NCBI GenBank assembly: GCA_902762305.1
Contig: CACWNW010000013.1
Location: 1 to 64,000, forward strand
Length of the DNA: 64,000 bases
Direction of reading: 5' to 3'
From: Fibrobacter succinogenes
GTDB taxonomy: Bacteria; Fibrobacterota; Fibrobacteria; Fibrobacterales; Fibrobacteraceae
Shown here: in pieces, positions 995 to 15,707 of the stretch
Layout: each line of letters starts with the position of its first letter
How positions within the stretch are numbered: the first letter of the stretch is position 1
Position numbers and translations under genes: made by a program
The notes under the pieces: generated by a model
What the model was told of the DNA's origin: nothing
Databases searched by the model: none
The model's input: the letters and a program-made list of their open reading frames with translations, nothing else

Positions 995-1232
995 AATTGG
1001 GGATTAAACGGGGCGTTTTTAGCCACATTAATCCCCAATTTTCAGAACAAACTAACAAGATTTCAGCCAATTCAGGGCTTTTGAGGTCTAAATTCGCCCC
1101 AAGTGGGGATTAAATCGGCATTTTTGGAGCATTTTATCCCCACCTCCCCTGCATTTTCGCCCCCGATAGCACATACAAACTAAATTTTTGGGGATTGAGC
1201 AGCGGTTTTTCAGCACATTTAATCCCCAATTT
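995..1232 (+). repeat. Array 1: three spaced palindromic units with GGGGATT arms
   Basis: Each unit is 37-38 bp: a left arm GGGGATTAAA, about 18 bp of interior, and a right arm TTTAATCCCC. GGGGATT starts at 999, 1105 and 1190, and the matching CCCC ends at 1036, 1141 and 1227. Unit 1 has perfect 13-bp arms (995-1007 and 1028-1040), unit 2 has one arm mismatch, unit 3 is more diverged. A run of five T sits in the centre of all three. Start-to-start spacing is 106 and 85 bp. The array precedes the nuclease-like gene at 1423 by about 190 bp, and a homologous layout with different arms precedes its paralog at 14646. Function is unknown. Confidence 0.85.
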
Positions 1233-1422: not shown

Positions 1423-2253
1423 ATGAACAACCTGGAGCTCATCCATCCCGATGACCTGCAACAACACATGCAGGCGCAATCCGAAAAAATCTTCGACACA
1501 ATCACCCGCCTGCGCTCGCGCGTGGCAAAAGCCCCGCCGGGGCGACTCCGCACAACAATCCGCGGGAACAAGCCCCGGTACTACCACATAACAGACCCCA
1601 AAAAGGCAAACGGCCTGTATATTCCCCGCGGCGAAGAAGCCCTTGCGGCAAGGCTCGCGCAGAAGGAATACGACACCACGCTGCTTCCCCTGTTGGAGCG
1701 ACAACTGGAACTCGTCAACAACTTCATCGCCGAATACCACCCGCAAGCGCCCGACGACGCGTACGCGGATTTGCCCGATTGCCGCCGGCAGTTCGTGACA
1801 CCCGCGCGACTTGCCGACAGCGAATATGCGAAGCGCTGGCTCGCCCTCCCCTTCAAGGGCAAGTCCATCGCAGATGGCCTCCCCGAATATGCGACCGCCC
1901 GCGGCGAGCGCGTCCGCTCCAAGTCCGAAGTCATCATCGCGGACACCCTCCTGCGCATGGGCATCCCGTACCGCTACGAATTCCCGCTGAAACTGAAATT
2001 GCCGCACGAAAAAAGCGCGACGTTCTTCCCCGACTTCACGTGCCTCAACCTGCGCACCCGCGAGGAAATTCTGTGGGAGCATTTCGGCATGATGGACGAC
2101 AGCGATTACGTCCACAAGGCAATGGACAAGCTGGACATCTACGAAAGAAACGGAATCTTCCCGGGAAAGCGCCTGATTATCTCGCGCGAGACGACCGAAA
2201 AGCCGCTGAACGTCAAGACCATCCAGAAGTTGGCGGAAGAATACCTGCGGTGA
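1423..2253 (+). CDS. Stand-alone PD-(D/E)XK nuclease-like protein, copy 1
   Basis: The 276-residue protein has a charged, helical N-terminal half (about 1-165) and a C-terminal region with the pattern of restriction-like nucleases. RSKSE puts a glutamate at 169, IIADTLLRMGIPYRYEFPL follows, FPDF puts an aspartate at 204, and WEHFG puts a glutamate at 219. The same E...PDF...EHFG order occurs in nuclease domains attached to UvrD-type helicases, and WEHFGMMDD-type stand-alone proteins are known from gut bacteria as uncharacterised. No helicase, methylase or transposase lies next to it. It follows palindrome array 1. A paralog lies at 13813-14646. Nuclease activity is inferred from the motif only; the lysine of the classical motif is not evident. 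Confidence 0.75.
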   Translation: MNNLELIHPDDLQQHMQAQSEKIFDTITRLRSRVAKAPPGRLRTTIRGNKPRYYHITDPKKANGLYIPRGEEALAARLAQKEYDTTLLPLLERQLELVNNFIAEYHPQAPDDAYADLPDCRRQFVTPARLADSEYAKRWLALPFKGKSIADGLPEYATARGERVRSKSEVIIADTLLRMGIPYRYEFPLKLKLPHEKSATFFPDFTCLNLRTREEILWEHFGMMDDSDYVHKAMDKLDIYERNGIFPGKRLIISRETTEKPLNVKTIQKLAEEYLR

Positions 2254-2432: not shown

Positions 2433-3635
2433 TTACTCAACCTTCACGCAACGTACGGACAGGCCATTGGTTTTTACAACTTCGTATGTAGAAAAAATTT
2501 CTCCAGTATTAGTTGTTGTTGAAGCAAAAGCCCTCGCTTCTGGATAATCAATTCCTTCTTCAACATAAAACCAATGAGTGCTTTTCGTAATATTTTTCAG
2601 TTGTCGTTCCCAGACATACCCTGCACCGACGAGGGAATAGCCGCTGTAATTAAAGCCCCCAAATGATATAGCTCGAGCGTCTTGAATTCCGTGCTTATTG
2701 TTGTCCGCATGAAGCACAATGTAAAAATCGTCCTGAGTCAGAAGCCGCCAGCCATCCGGACAAATGCCCTGGTGGTTCGGCTGGATTAAATCGGCGCAGC
2801 TCTTGGTGTTGCATTCACTCGGCAGTTGCATCATCTCGGCCCACTGGTAGAGGGCTCCGTAGCGGTCGCAATTTGTGGTATCCCTATCGTAGCAGTAACG
2901 CTCGATTAACGTATCGTTTGCCTGATCTTTTGTAATACCAACCATCTTGCCGATATTGAGGTTTTCTGCCATTACGGTCACAGAAGCGGCCTCGCCTTTT
3001 TTGTTTTTCCCGTTTATCGTAATGTAGTAGTAGCTACGACCATTGCGTTCATCAACAAAGGTCTTATAATCGCTGCTTTTGATACGAATAGCATCACCCA
3101 AATCAGCCTTATGGTCATACGGGACATAGCCGCTGCTACTGGGAACACTTGAACTCGACTGCGGAGTGACGCTGGAGGAGGAGTTATCACTACTGCTCGA
3201 TTGCGGAGTGACGCTAGAGGAAGACTTCGCGCTGCTGCTGGATTTCGCGCTCGATGAAGACTTCGCCGAGCTGCTGCTCGACAGATCCTCGACCGGAGTC
3301 GAGGATGACGAACGCACCGAGCTACTCGACTTCGCGGAACTACTGGACACCGACGAGGAAGACTTAGCCGAACTGCTGCTAGATAGATCCTCGACCGGAG
3401 CCGAGGATGACGAACGCACGGAGCTACTCGACTTCGCGGAACTACTGGACACCGACGAGGAAGACTTAGCCGAACTGCTGCTAGATAGATCCTCGACCGG
3501 AGCCGAGGATGACGATGTCGGTGTGACGCTCTCACTGCTCGACGAGGAGGGTTCATCGTCTCGCGGGGCGAAACTGCTCTCGTCGTCACAGGCGGCAAAA
3601 AATGCGAGAGCCAATCCCAGCAAAAAACGCTTCAT
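2433..3635 (-). CDS. Serine-rich lipoprotein with Fibrobacter major paralogous domain
   Basis: This is a 400-residue exported protein. The signal peptide MKRFLLGLALAFFAAC ends in a lipobox with Cys16. Residues about 25-165 are a serine-rich linker of SSSS blocks separated by AK, VR, PVED and VTPQ, and encode a 34-residue (102-bp) tandem repeat. Residues about 170-400 are the TIGR02145-type domain (YYYITINGKN, VMAENLN, CPDGWRLLTQDDF, LSVRCVKVE). The domain is abundant in Fibrobacter and its function is unknown; surface exposure is inferred. AGGAGG lies before the ATG at 3635. Confidence 0.9.
   Translation of the reverse strand: MKRFLLGLALAFFAACDDESSFAPRDDEPSSSSSESVTPTSSSSAPVEDLSSSSSAKSSSSVSSSSAKSSSSVRSSSSAPVEDLSSSSSAKSSSSVSSSSAKSSSSVRSSSSTPVEDLSSSSSAKSSSSAKSSSSAKSSSSVTPQSSSSDNSSSSVTPQSSSSVPSSSGYVPYDHKADLGDAIRIKSSDYKTFVDERNGRSYYYITINGKNKKGEAASVTVMAENLNIGKMVGITKDQANDTLIERYCYDRDTTNCDRYGALYQWAEMMQLPSECNTKSCADLIQPNHQGICPDGWRLLTQDDFYIVLHADNNKHGIQDARAISFGGFNYSGYSLVGAGYVWERQLKNITKSTHWFYVEEGIDYPEARAFASTTTNTGEIFSTYEVVKTNGLSVRCVKVE
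3284..3487 (-). repeat. 102-bp coding minisatellite in serine-rich linker
   Basis: Two adjacent near-identical 102-bp units start with GATCCTCGACCGGAG at 3284 and 3386, and a third partial copy begins at 3488. Each encodes 34 residues of the form DLSSSSSAKSSSSVSSSS and so on to SAPVE. The length is a multiple of three, so gain or loss of units would change linker length without breaking the frame. Confidence 0.85.
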
Positions 3636-12903: not shown

Positions 12904-13656
12904 TTAGTCCTTCACACAGCGCACCGAGAACCCGTAGTTCTTAATGTTGTCGTGCAGGTTCGCATCGACGATGTAGAAGTCCAAGAACATGCAGTACGCG
13001 TAGCCGCTAAAGTCCTCCGTAGAACTCCAGAAGTACGCGTAGTCGCCCTCGCCGTCGTAACCCTCATTGCCGATCCTGTAGCCGCCGGTCCTGTAGCCAG
13101 CAGGGAGCGCCGAGAACCCGAAAGCATCCGTACCGTTGCCACTACTATTCCATCCGGATGTGGACTTGAGCACCCAGCCTGCCGTCGATGGTCCACCGAC
13201 TGCGTTGAACAAAGTTTCCCATTCGACCTTGCTCGGCAGATGCCAGCCATTGGGACATACACCCTGAATGTTTCCTGACGGCAGAGAGCATATATAGGCA
13301 GGGCCACATTCGCTTTCCGACTTACCTACCGCCGCAGCCCACCTGTAAAGCCTTCCGTACTTGGCGCAGTTAGTTTCCTCGGAATTATAGCAGAAACTGA
13401 AGTCCGTTTCGTAGTTGAGGTTTTCTGCCATCCACGTCTGCGAGCCAATCGTCACAGTCTTGTAGGTCTGACCATCGCGGGAGTCGGTCATTGTTCCACT
13501 CTTCACCTCAACCGGCCCGTTATCGCTCGGGCCGTTGGAACTGCTGTCGTCGCCACAGGCCGCAAGGAAAAGAAACATGGCCCCTATCGCCACTACGTGG
13601 CTCCTGGGAGATTGTTTGCGTCCGAAAAGACGCCTTTCGACTTTCTTAAATGCCAT
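12904..13656 (-). CDS. Lipoprotein with Fibrobacter major paralogous domain
   Basis: This is a 250-residue exported protein. A long positively charged N-terminus is followed by a hydrophobic segment and lipobox FLAAC (Cys34), a very short linker, then the complete TIGR02145-type domain: SRDGQTYKTVTIGSQTWMAENLNY, KYGRLYRWAAA, CPNGWHLPSK, LPAGYR, FWSSTED and FSVRCVKD. It is a compact version, with no serine-rich linker. GAGG lies before the ATG and a TATATA -10-like box is at about 13690. Function unknown. Confidence 0.9.
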   Translation of the reverse strand: MAFKKVERRLFGRKQSPRSHVVAIGAMFLFLAACGDDSSSNGPSDNGPVEVKSGTMTDSRDGQTYKTVTIGSQTWMAENLNYETDFSFCYNSEETNCAKYGRLYRWAAAVGKSESECGPAYICSLPSGNIQGVCPNGWHLPSKVEWETLFNAVGGPSTAGWVLKSTSGWNSSGNGTDAFGFSALPAGYRTGGYRIGNEGYDGEGDYAYFWSSTEDFSGYAYCMFLDFYIVDANLHDNIKNYGFSVRCVKD

Positions 13657-13812: not shown

Positions 13813-14646
13813 TCAAAGCAAGTATTCTTCGGCTAGGTTCTGGATTCGCTTCACGTTCAACGGGTTTTCCACCGTCTCGCGCGAGACAATCAAGCGTTTC
13901 CCCAGAAAAATTCCATTCTTCTCGTAGACGTCGAGTTTTCCCATGGCGTTGAGGGCGTATTCCGGGTCGTCCATCATGCCGAAATGCTCCCACAGGTATT
14001 CTTCGCGCGTGCGCAGGTTGAGGCAAGTGAAGTCCGGGAAAAAGTTCGTCGTGCCCTTCCCCCGCGGCAATTTCAACTTCAGGGGAAATTCGTAGCGGTA
14101 AGGGATTCCCATTCGGGAAAGCGTATCCGCGATGATGACCTCGGACTTGGAGCGCACGCGCTCGCCTCGGGCGGTCGTAAATTCCGGCTGGTCAGCGGCA
14201 AAGGGCTTGCCCCTGTACGGGACTGCGAGCCAGCGCTTGGCGTATTCCTCGTCAGAAAGTTGCACCGGGTCGACAAACGCCCGGCGGCACTCCGGCATTC
14301 CGTCGTAGATTTCGCCAAGGACCTGCGGGCGGAACTCTGCAATAAACTCGTTGACAAGTTCCAGGCGCCGTTCCATTTCGGTCAAGGCCGACTTTTCGTA
14401 ATCCTTCTGGACCAATTTCGCCACGATGGATTCCTCGCATCGCGGGATATACGTGCCGCCGGGAGTTTTCGGGTCCGTCACGTGGTAGAAGCGGATTCCG
14501 TTCCCGCGGCGTGCCATGCGGATGCGGCCCGGTGGCAATTTCGCGAGATGCGCCCGCAGGCGGGTTATGGCGGAGTAGAGTTTTTCGGATTGCAACTGCA
14601 AATGCCGTTGCAGTTCATCAGGTGGAAGGATTTCCAGGTTGTTCAT
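13813..14646 (-). CDS. Stand-alone PD-(D/E)XK nuclease-like protein, copy 2
   Basis: This 277-residue protein is a full-length paralog of the protein at 1423-2253. The C-terminal halves are nearly identical, with RSKSEVIIADTL, FPDFTCLNLRTREE and WEHFGMMDD, so the putative metal residues (Glu, Asp, Glu) are kept. The N-terminal halves, about 35-165, differ more and are the better candidate for whatever differs between the loci. The ATG at 14646 matches the MNNLE start of copy 1; an upstream in-frame ATG at 14706 lies inside the conserved leader and is not used. It follows array 2, read on the minus strand. Confidence 0.75.
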   Translation of the reverse strand: MNNLEILPPDELQRHLQLQSEKLYSAITRLRAHLAKLPPGRIRMARRGNGIRFYHVTDPKTPGGTYIPRCEESIVAKLVQKDYEKSALTEMERRLELVNEFIAEFRPQVLGEIYDGMPECRRAFVDPVQLSDEEYAKRWLAVPYRGKPFAADQPEFTTARGERVRSKSEVIIADTLSRMGIPYRYEFPLKLKLPRGKGTTNFFPDFTCLNLRTREEYLWEHFGMMDDPEYALNAMGKLDVYEKNGIFLGKRLIVSRETVENPLNVKRIQNLAEEYLL

Positions 14647-14791: not shown

Positions 14792-15047
14792 ATGGGGACC
14801 AAAGCACCCAAAGTCACACCATTTGGTACCCAAAATTTTAGTTTATCCGCAACGCAACAAACATTTTTCAGTTGCAGGCGAGCGAAACTTGCCCGCAAGT
14901 GGGTACCAAACAACACAAAAGCAGCATTTTGGTACCCAGCCGAAGCTGTTTTGCGCACATTTTACCCCAACATGCGCCTCAAATTGATTACTTTGTTCTA
15001 AAAATTGGGTACCAAAACAGCCTCAACACCCCCACTTGGTACCCATT
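14792..15047 (-). repeat. Array 2: three spaced palindromic units with GGGTACC arms
   Basis: Each unit is 37-38 bp: a left arm GGGTACCAAA (GGGGACCAAA in the gene-proximal unit), about 18 bp of interior, and a right arm TTTGGTACCC. Units lie at 14794-14831, 14901-14937 and 15008-15044, so the start-to-start distance is 107 bp twice. On the minus strand the spacers match those of array 1: TAGAACAAAGTAATCA against CAGAACAAACTAACAA after the distal unit, and AAACTAAAATTTT against AAACTAAATTTTT before the proximal unit. Only the arms have been replaced. It ends about 40 bp from the stop of the gene at 15087. Confidence 0.85.
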
Positions 15048-15086: not shown

Positions 15087-15707
15087 CTAGTCCTTCACAC
15101 AACGAACCGAGACCCAGAGGTTCTTATTGCTGAGGCCCAGGAGCGCAGTGACGTCGCTGTAGCGCAAGTTCATGTAGTACGCGCCGCTATAGTCCTCCGT
15201 AGAACTCCAGAAGTCCGCGCTGAGGCCGCCGTAGTAGAAATCCCCACTGCGGTTCCTGTAGCCAGCAGGGAGCGCCGAGAACCCGAAAGCATCCGTGCCG
15301 TTGCCATCTTTTCCTCCGTATTCATTCCATCCGTTGGTGGACTTCAGCATTTTCCCCGCATTTTCCCATTTCCAAGCATTTTCCTGAACCCCGCCCACGA
15401 ACTTAAGCAAAATTTCAAATTCTTCTTTGCTGGGCAAGTGCCAGCCTACGGGGCAGGCAACTTTTGCCGCGTCCCAGTTATAGAGCCTACCGTATTTCTG
15501 ACAATTCGTTTCCTTATCCTCGTAGCACCAGCTACCCTCGGTTTTCACCTTCAGATTCTCTGCCATCCAAATCTGTTTACCAATCCCTACAGTCTGGTAC
15601 GACTCGCCGTCGCGGGCGTCTGTCATGGTTCCCTTTTTCGGGGCTGCGAAGGCTCCCTCCGCACAGAACACAACCACGAGAGCCAGGGTCAAAGCCAGTC
15701 GTTTCAT
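15087..15707 (-). CDS. Secreted protein with Fibrobacter major paralogous domain
   Basis: This 206-residue protein has a Sec signal peptide cleaved after AFA (residue 21) with no lipobox, so it is probably released to the periplasm or beyond. The domain is complete: DARDGESYQTVGIGKQIWMAENLKV, CPVGWHLPSKEEF, GTDAFGFSALPAGYRN, FWSSTEDYS and VSVRCVKD. It is one of four copies here and the shortest. GAGGAGG precedes the ATG. Function unknown. Confidence 0.9.
   Translation of the reverse strand: MKRLALTLALVVVFCAEGAFAAPKKGTMTDARDGESYQTVGIGKQIWMAENLKVKTEGSWCYEDKETNCQKYGRLYNWDAAKVACPVGWHLPSKEEFEILLKFVGGVQENAWKWENAGKMLKSTNGWNEYGGKDGNGTDAFGFSALPAGYRNRSGDFYYGGLSADFWSSTEDYSGAYYMNLRYSDVTALLGLSNKNLWVSVRCVKD

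Follow-up and report, generated by a model that had tools for sequence, protein, structure and literature searches.

Two paralogous genes for a nuclease-like protein in Fibrobacter succinogenes each adjoin three spaced palindromes, whose arms are alike within a locus and unlike between the two loci. Why such palindromes should differ according to the gene that they accompany, and what they may do for its product, is the question addressed here. The stretch of DNA analysed, called the window below, comprises 64,000 nucleotides (positions 1-64,000 of contig CACWNW010000013.1, assembly GCA_902762305.1).

Palindromic arrays and nuclease-like genes in the window

The three-unit arrays and the paralogy of the two adjoining genes, both proposed in a first-pass annotation of this DNA, were confirmed (Table 1). 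The predicted products W1 and W2, of 276 and about 277 residues, were 67% identical, and alignment bore out the homology of the spacers of arrays 1 and 2. The start spacings were 106 and 85 bp in array 1, as had been stated, and 107 and 106 bp, not 107 and 107, in array 2. A scan of the entire window for arrays of this type returned arrays 1 and 2 only, and none was found in five shuffles of the window; the sole further repeated palindrome (3285-3510) lay within a coding serine-rich repeat. Both nuclease loci have several lipoprotein-like ORFs as neighbours (2433-3635, 12904-13656 and 15087-15707); these are related to one another, with linkers rich in Ser and a common C-terminal domain, and the one at 2433-3635 was absent from the corresponding site in L008.

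Table 1. Positions of the palindromic units and of the adjoining genes in the window
Feature	Positions	Strand	Remarks
Array 1, palindrome unit 1	999..1036	.	arms GGGGATT...AATCCCC
Array 1, palindrome unit 2	1105..1141	.	arms GGGGATT...TATCCCC
Array 1, palindrome unit 3	1190..1227	.	arms GGGGATT...AATCCCC
Paralog W1, 276-aa PD-(D/E)XK-like protein	1423..2253	+	
W1 codons 41-56, beta-hairpin, proposed reader of the arms	1543..1590	+	T45 with arm -4, R52 with arm -6
Paralog W2, ~277-aa PD-(D/E)XK-like protein	13813..14646	-	frame open further upstream; same hairpin, A45
Array 2, unit closest to gene W2	14794..14831	.	GGGGACC...GGTACCC (left arm with one mismatch)
Array 2, central unit	14901..14937	.	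arms GGGTACC...GGTACCC
Array 2, unit most distant from gene W2	15007..15044	.	arms GGGTACC...GGTACCC

Distribution of the arrays

The genome bears four paralogs, each with an array and each array with a different arm sequence; the paralogs on contigs C8 and C20 follow four units with GGGGCGTATAAA arms and three units with GGCTGACTAAA arms, respectively. A nuclease match was detected in 50 of 80 genomes of the genus, with up to eight per genome, and the best 80 homologs from a scan of the collection belonged to Fibrobacter, Treponema and Bacillota. The homolog search with calling of upstream palindrome triplets, which the first-pass annotation had proposed, was carried out on 140 distinct homolog loci with enough upstream sequence: at least three palindromes were found within 700 bp upstream in 106 of them, and in none of the 140 when the same upstream sequences were shuffled. 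At 13 more loci the array was located downstream only, and at nine on both sides of the gene. With a 900-bp limit, arrays were present upstream of 69 of 90 Fibrobacter genes (downstream only of 11 more), of 26 of 32 Treponema genes (downstream only of two more), where they often ended 14-50 bp ahead of the start codon, and of 11 of 18 genes from Bacillota and others; no array was found at seven of the 18 Bacillota homologs and at one Fibrobacter ortholog group. The arrays, usually of 3-13 units and in some loci of two, are thus far more general than had been stated.

Spacing of the palindromes

When 256 spacings between neighbouring palindromes (up to 150 bp) from 79 distinct arrays were scanned for periods of 4 to 25 bp, the best period was 10.50 bp, with a phase of 0.4 bp and R=0.904. 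The result was practically the same when a single spacing per array was taken (mean R 0.905, n=79, p about 1e-25). Spacings clustered at 52-53, 63-64, 73-74, 84-85, 94-95, 105-106, 116 bp and so on, so that the whole-turn part of the earlier description, 'close to ten helical turns', stood, but the number of turns ranged from 5 to 14. Within one unit, the half-sites were mostly 29-31 bp apart, about three turns, and each comprised 6-8 variable base pairs, with AAA on their inner side in most loci. A spacing quantised at 10.50 bp places the palindromes on one face of double-stranded DNA, and this geometry points to proteins sitting on that face. Two arrays, L233 (six units) and L059 (four units), showed a repeating pattern of 64, 137 and 64 bp, as expected of in-phase growth by block duplication.

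Arm sequences and the N-terminal region of the protein

The 88 loci with cleanly anchored arms had 46 different arm sequences, and the agreement of arms inside a locus and their disagreement across loci, first noticed in the window, were seen here too. A change of arms could be followed in two versions of one locus, L117 (G056) and L124 (G006), whose upstream flanks were 98.5% identical and which, over the stretch that starts at codon 53 and reaches about 1.5 kb beyond the gene, were 95.6% identical. Between these limits the array and codons 1-52 were unrelated, with arms GGGCATAT in one and GTACCTAT in the other and the breakpoint at codon 53; to judge by the alignment, the array and the first 52 codons were exchanged as one block. 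L009 and L218, again two versions of one locus, showed a similar swap, with the breakpoint near codon 123.

For pairs whose nuclease domains shared 75% identity or more (pairs that are not independent of one another), arm similarity correlated with identity of the N-terminal region with a rho of 0.66, versus 0.27 for the C-terminal region. When the arms were compared with all protein columns, a check that had been suggested earlier for residues 35-165, residues 45 and 52 were among the best covarying: after background correction residue 45 with arm position -4 came first and residue 52 with arm position -6 second, and eight of the top 25 columns fell within residues 36-60. At residue 45, S was associated with G in 13 of 15 cases, I with T in 8/8, V with A in 7/9, D with C in 5/7 and L with A in 4/5, W1 having T45 with G at -4 and L008/W2 having A45 with T at -4; R, Y or H at residue 52 was paired with G in 16 of 17. 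In cluster-permutation tests the pair 52/-6 ranked third or better at each of three thresholds, the pair 45/-4 came first and fourth at two of them, and some C-terminal columns scored equally high, as is expected from shared ancestry. Because columns elsewhere also score, this covariation of hairpin residues with the arms is suggestive, a support and not a proof. The cassette swaps, the correlation with N-terminal identity and the covariation at residues 45 and 52 together sustain the proposal that the arms change with the adjoining protein.

The predicted protein

An AlphaFold2 model of W1 built with 47 homologs (mean pLDDT 94.9) comprised a helix (12-36), the beta-hairpin (41-56), a long helix (69-104) and a C-terminal nuclease-like domain (about 155-276). 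E169 and E219 were invariant among the homologs, and D204 and K236 were conserved in at least 90% of them. The acidic core of the PD-(D/E)XK superfamily (E, D, E/D-x-K in an alpha/beta fold) could be recognised and the order of helices and strands fits, with the lysine K236 in the following helix, not within an ExK motif. On model and conservation, the protein is PD-(D/E)XK-like and a putative nuclease.

The C-terminal domain matched the C-terminal nuclease domain of the candidate defence protein PDC-S68 in PADLOC (E 3.5e-28), a match confined to that domain out of about 1,220 aa, and in a viral library its fold matched DUF559/Vsr-like and TnsA-like phage endonucleases. Searches of Pfam and NCBIfam gave no significant match and no family covering the protein, a sequence search of PDB gave nothing specific, and with Foldseek no PDB structure was matched at E<0.001. 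The N-terminal recognition region had no significant sequence or fold match, and no transposase fold was found in the protein. Nine phage contigs (L264-L272) encode relatives of the nuclease domain only.

Arrays without a nuclease gene

In one respect the earlier interpretation did not hold as stated, for arrays also occur away from the gene. At least five triplets without a nuclease were present in the same genome: three more of the GGGGATT type (C2, C5 and C7), with the same 85/106 spacing and with mutual homology ending near the outer arms, and two with GGGGC(G/A)TAT arms (C1 and C16). These orphan arrays were sought by pattern searches and on selected stretches, so the census is a minimum. 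Of 80 genomes, 71 lacked the GGGGATT pattern, and a reversed control pattern was almost never found. In the GGGGCGTAT type, a nuclease with these arms was identified in four of 80 genomes (G000, G012, G022 and G065), and all four have extra units elsewhere; GGGGATT orphan arrays persist in G010, where no cognate gene was detected. Orphan arrays had kept their arms and their loops had diverged, suggesting that copying is rare or old. The first-pass annotation had named the same arms scattered without the gene, as the mark of ordinary REP elements, among the findings that would count against its own reading. Such scatter was indeed found, but the copies are phased multi-unit arrays with nuclease-specific arms and therefore not ordinary REPs.

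Two further observations concern repeats outside the nuclease loci. In L131 (G003) two palindromes with arms close to GGACTAAA were located directly upstream of rpsO, whose neighbourhood is the location of W1 in the present genome; the array type in this neighbourhood is a different one in G003, whose own nuclease array (L214) has GGACTAAA arms. A dispersed sequence of about 110 bp adjoins the C16 orphan array (L276, about 1787-1907; C16 near 74.0 kb) and, with dozens of matches in G065, G044, G019 and G003, apparently represents another extragenic repeat family of the genus.

Gain, duplication and change of arrays

Comparison of orthologous sites revealed arrays that were present in some genomes and missing in others. 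The C2 array was found in G000 and G065 and was missing from the same intergenic site in seven relatives, and the C16 array was missing in the sister genome G065. The rpsO-DHH intergenic region was empty in G064, carried the GGGGATT version in G000 and G065 and, in L008, the one with GGGTACC. At C2 the inserted DNA (353 bp) exceeded the array (229 bp) in length, no precise recurrent junction was found at C2 or C16, and no target-site duplication was found at C2, C16 or rpsO. At G022:C27 the neighbouring sequence was rearranged in the relative compared. A simple DDE transposon or MITE, which would have fixed terminal inverted repeats and target-site duplications, was rejected, as no such duplication was found at these sites and the junctions were imprecise.

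Arrays were also duplicated across the gene. In L071, a 335-bp array was directly repeated on either side of the gene with 97.6% identity, ending exactly at the outer arms, and direct repeats of 290 bp (95%) and 312 bp (80%) were present in L243 and L221, respectively. Past a 127-aa ORF downstream of paralog W4, a second three-unit array with GGCTGACT arms was located (L007 9458-9681, on C20); the arms match in both arrays of W4, with spacings of 116/74 in the second versus 116/75 in the upstream one. Sequences of the orthologous C7 array differed in the arms of unit 1, which were GGGGATT in four and of the GGGTACC type in three. Unit 2 had not changed and unit 3 had done so by half, so that C7, read from this alignment, is an array caught in transition between arm types.

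Proposed mechanism and alternatives

The best explanation of the whole, to which we give a probability of about one half, is that the arrays serve the PD-(D/E)XK-like protein both as sites to bind and as the unit that is copied. Each locus would then be a two-part system of protein and array. In our judgement, the protein very probably binds the arrays. Probably as dimers, it would contact both inverted arms of each palindrome via its N-terminal beta-hairpin, and the whole-turn spacing of the units would bring several dimers together on a single face of the DNA. That the protein spreads the arrays is the likeliest reading of the gains, duplications and orphans, and about an even bet. The DNA copied would be the array, limited at either end by the outer arm of the terminal palindrome, and copies would go to new intergenic sites and occasionally across the gene; the nuclease domain most likely processes the array, in the way proposed for RAYT transposases and REPINs. 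Arms could diverge by a mutation of the hairpin followed by a change of the sites, or by recombination that replaces array and N-terminal codons as one cassette, and either route would give paralogs within one cell different addresses. With slightly less than even odds, the whole may be a new class of mobile or selfish DNA system, in which a PD-(D/E)XK protein reads an evolvable half-site through its hairpin, assembles on phased arrays, spreads them in trans and is re-addressed by swaps of the array-plus-hairpin cassette.

The main rival, which we consider rather unlikely although both may hold, is a self-regulating nuclease that represses itself through phased operators at its own promoter. 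Orphan arrays would be further regulatory targets or decoys, mobilisation by the protein would not be needed, and hairpin and arms would co-evolve because a mismatch would free a toxic nuclease. The upstream position of most arrays, in Treponema often so close to the start codon, agrees with this, as do the whole-turn phasing, which suits cooperative binding, the inclusion of the promoter region in the swapped cassette, and the orphan arrays that retain arms while loops diverge. However, the array is downstream only at 13 loci and on both sides at nine, arrays turn up as units at new intergenic sites, duplication across the gene ends at the outer arms, and simple repression would not call for the conservation of a nuclease core. 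Self-regulation, one of the ideas of the first-pass annotation, is therefore possible but cannot be the whole story.

An anti-phage or self/non-self system is improbable; in such a system foreign DNA entering the cell would be cut by the nuclease, which the arrays would anchor, sequester or license. The defence role proposed earlier finds a weak hint in the nuclease domain (the PDC-S68 match), and the paralogs do diversify in specificity; that match, however, is limited to one domain of a much larger protein, the four loci of this genome adjoin, in our reading of their neighbours, housekeeping or lipoprotein genes, and no methyltransferase partner was found among these neighbours. A homing endonuclease, also proposed earlier, does not fit and was rejected: the insertion of a homing element removes its intact target, and here the putative cognate sites are intact, in at least three copies beside the gene, and the empty sites of relatives have no such palindrome. 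Ordinary REP-like repeats that lie near the gene by chance, with palindromes acting as RNA hairpins or terminators, would account for orphan copies in intergenic DNA but were rejected as very improbable on phasing and locus specificity, since the arms depend on which paralog adjoins, the 10.50-bp period concerns double-stranded DNA and not RNA, shuffled sequences gave 0/140 arrays and arm type follows the protein N-terminus.

Comparison with known systems

A literature search of open-access papers found no description of this family, and no solved-structure relative over the length of the protein was found. As Pfam and NCBIfam also hold no family covering it, the family appears undescribed; with its arrays it looks like a new kind of partnership between a protein and mobile DNA.

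Several known systems share single features with it. PDC-S68 and the DUF559/Vsr-like and TnsA-like phage endonucleases have the C-terminal nuclease-like domain in common with the protein, but its N-terminal recognition region has no significant match, and we know of none of these enzymes described with such arrays. In type I restriction specificity subunits (HsdS), the recognition module is swapped and the rest of the gene stays; specificity seems to be altered here in the same way, but the cognate sites lie within the swapped cassette and there is no methylase. The iteron arrays of plasmid replication initiators are sites repeated in phase next to the gene for the protein that binds them, which is also the arrangement of the putative binding sites here, although these are palindromic, widely spaced, chromosomal and dispersed units and the protein is nuclease-like. 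Like MITEs and other non-autonomous elements moved in trans, the arrays are short non-coding units bounded by inverted sequences and are present or absent at orthologous sites; unlike MITEs, they have several internal palindromes, no target-site duplication was seen, and no known terminal-repeat transposase fits.

If the mobile or selfish reading is true, the array-protein pairs would supply a readable code of protein-DNA recognition. The family offers dozens of naturally occurring combinations of a protein with its DNA address, among which the swaps at one locus are ready-made experiments, and it would add a compact DNA-binding module in which the evolution of specificity can be read and tested.

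The closest resemblance in logic is to REPIN/RAYT systems (TnpA-REP, 'REPtron'; PMC3116915, PMC8266576), in which an enzyme gene also has adjacent palindromic repeats, similar repeats are scattered through the extragenic part of that genome, as they are here, and repeat diversity is ascribed to co-evolution with the enzyme. REPs were found beside every RAYT examined, and it was proposed that they move in trans and co-evolve with the RAYT (PMC3116915), and TnpA-REP cleaves single-stranded REP carrying GTAG (PMC8266576). RAYTs are IS200-like HUH/Y1 transposases acting on single-stranded hairpins, whereas the present protein is PD-(D/E)XK-like and its arms seem to be recognised in double-stranded form, as half-sites separated by about 30 bp, a view for which the 10.50-bp phasing argues. 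Nor is there a counterpart of the conserved GTAG, since the outer arm sequences are free to differ, with 46 types among the 88 clean loci, and the units, unlike REPINs, are usually in arrays of 3-13, whole helical turns apart. Lacking both the HUH/Y1 transposase and GTAG, the system is not a REPIN/RAYT member, and it would be another, unrelated answer to the same problem, the co-evolution of palindromic repeats with a single enzyme.
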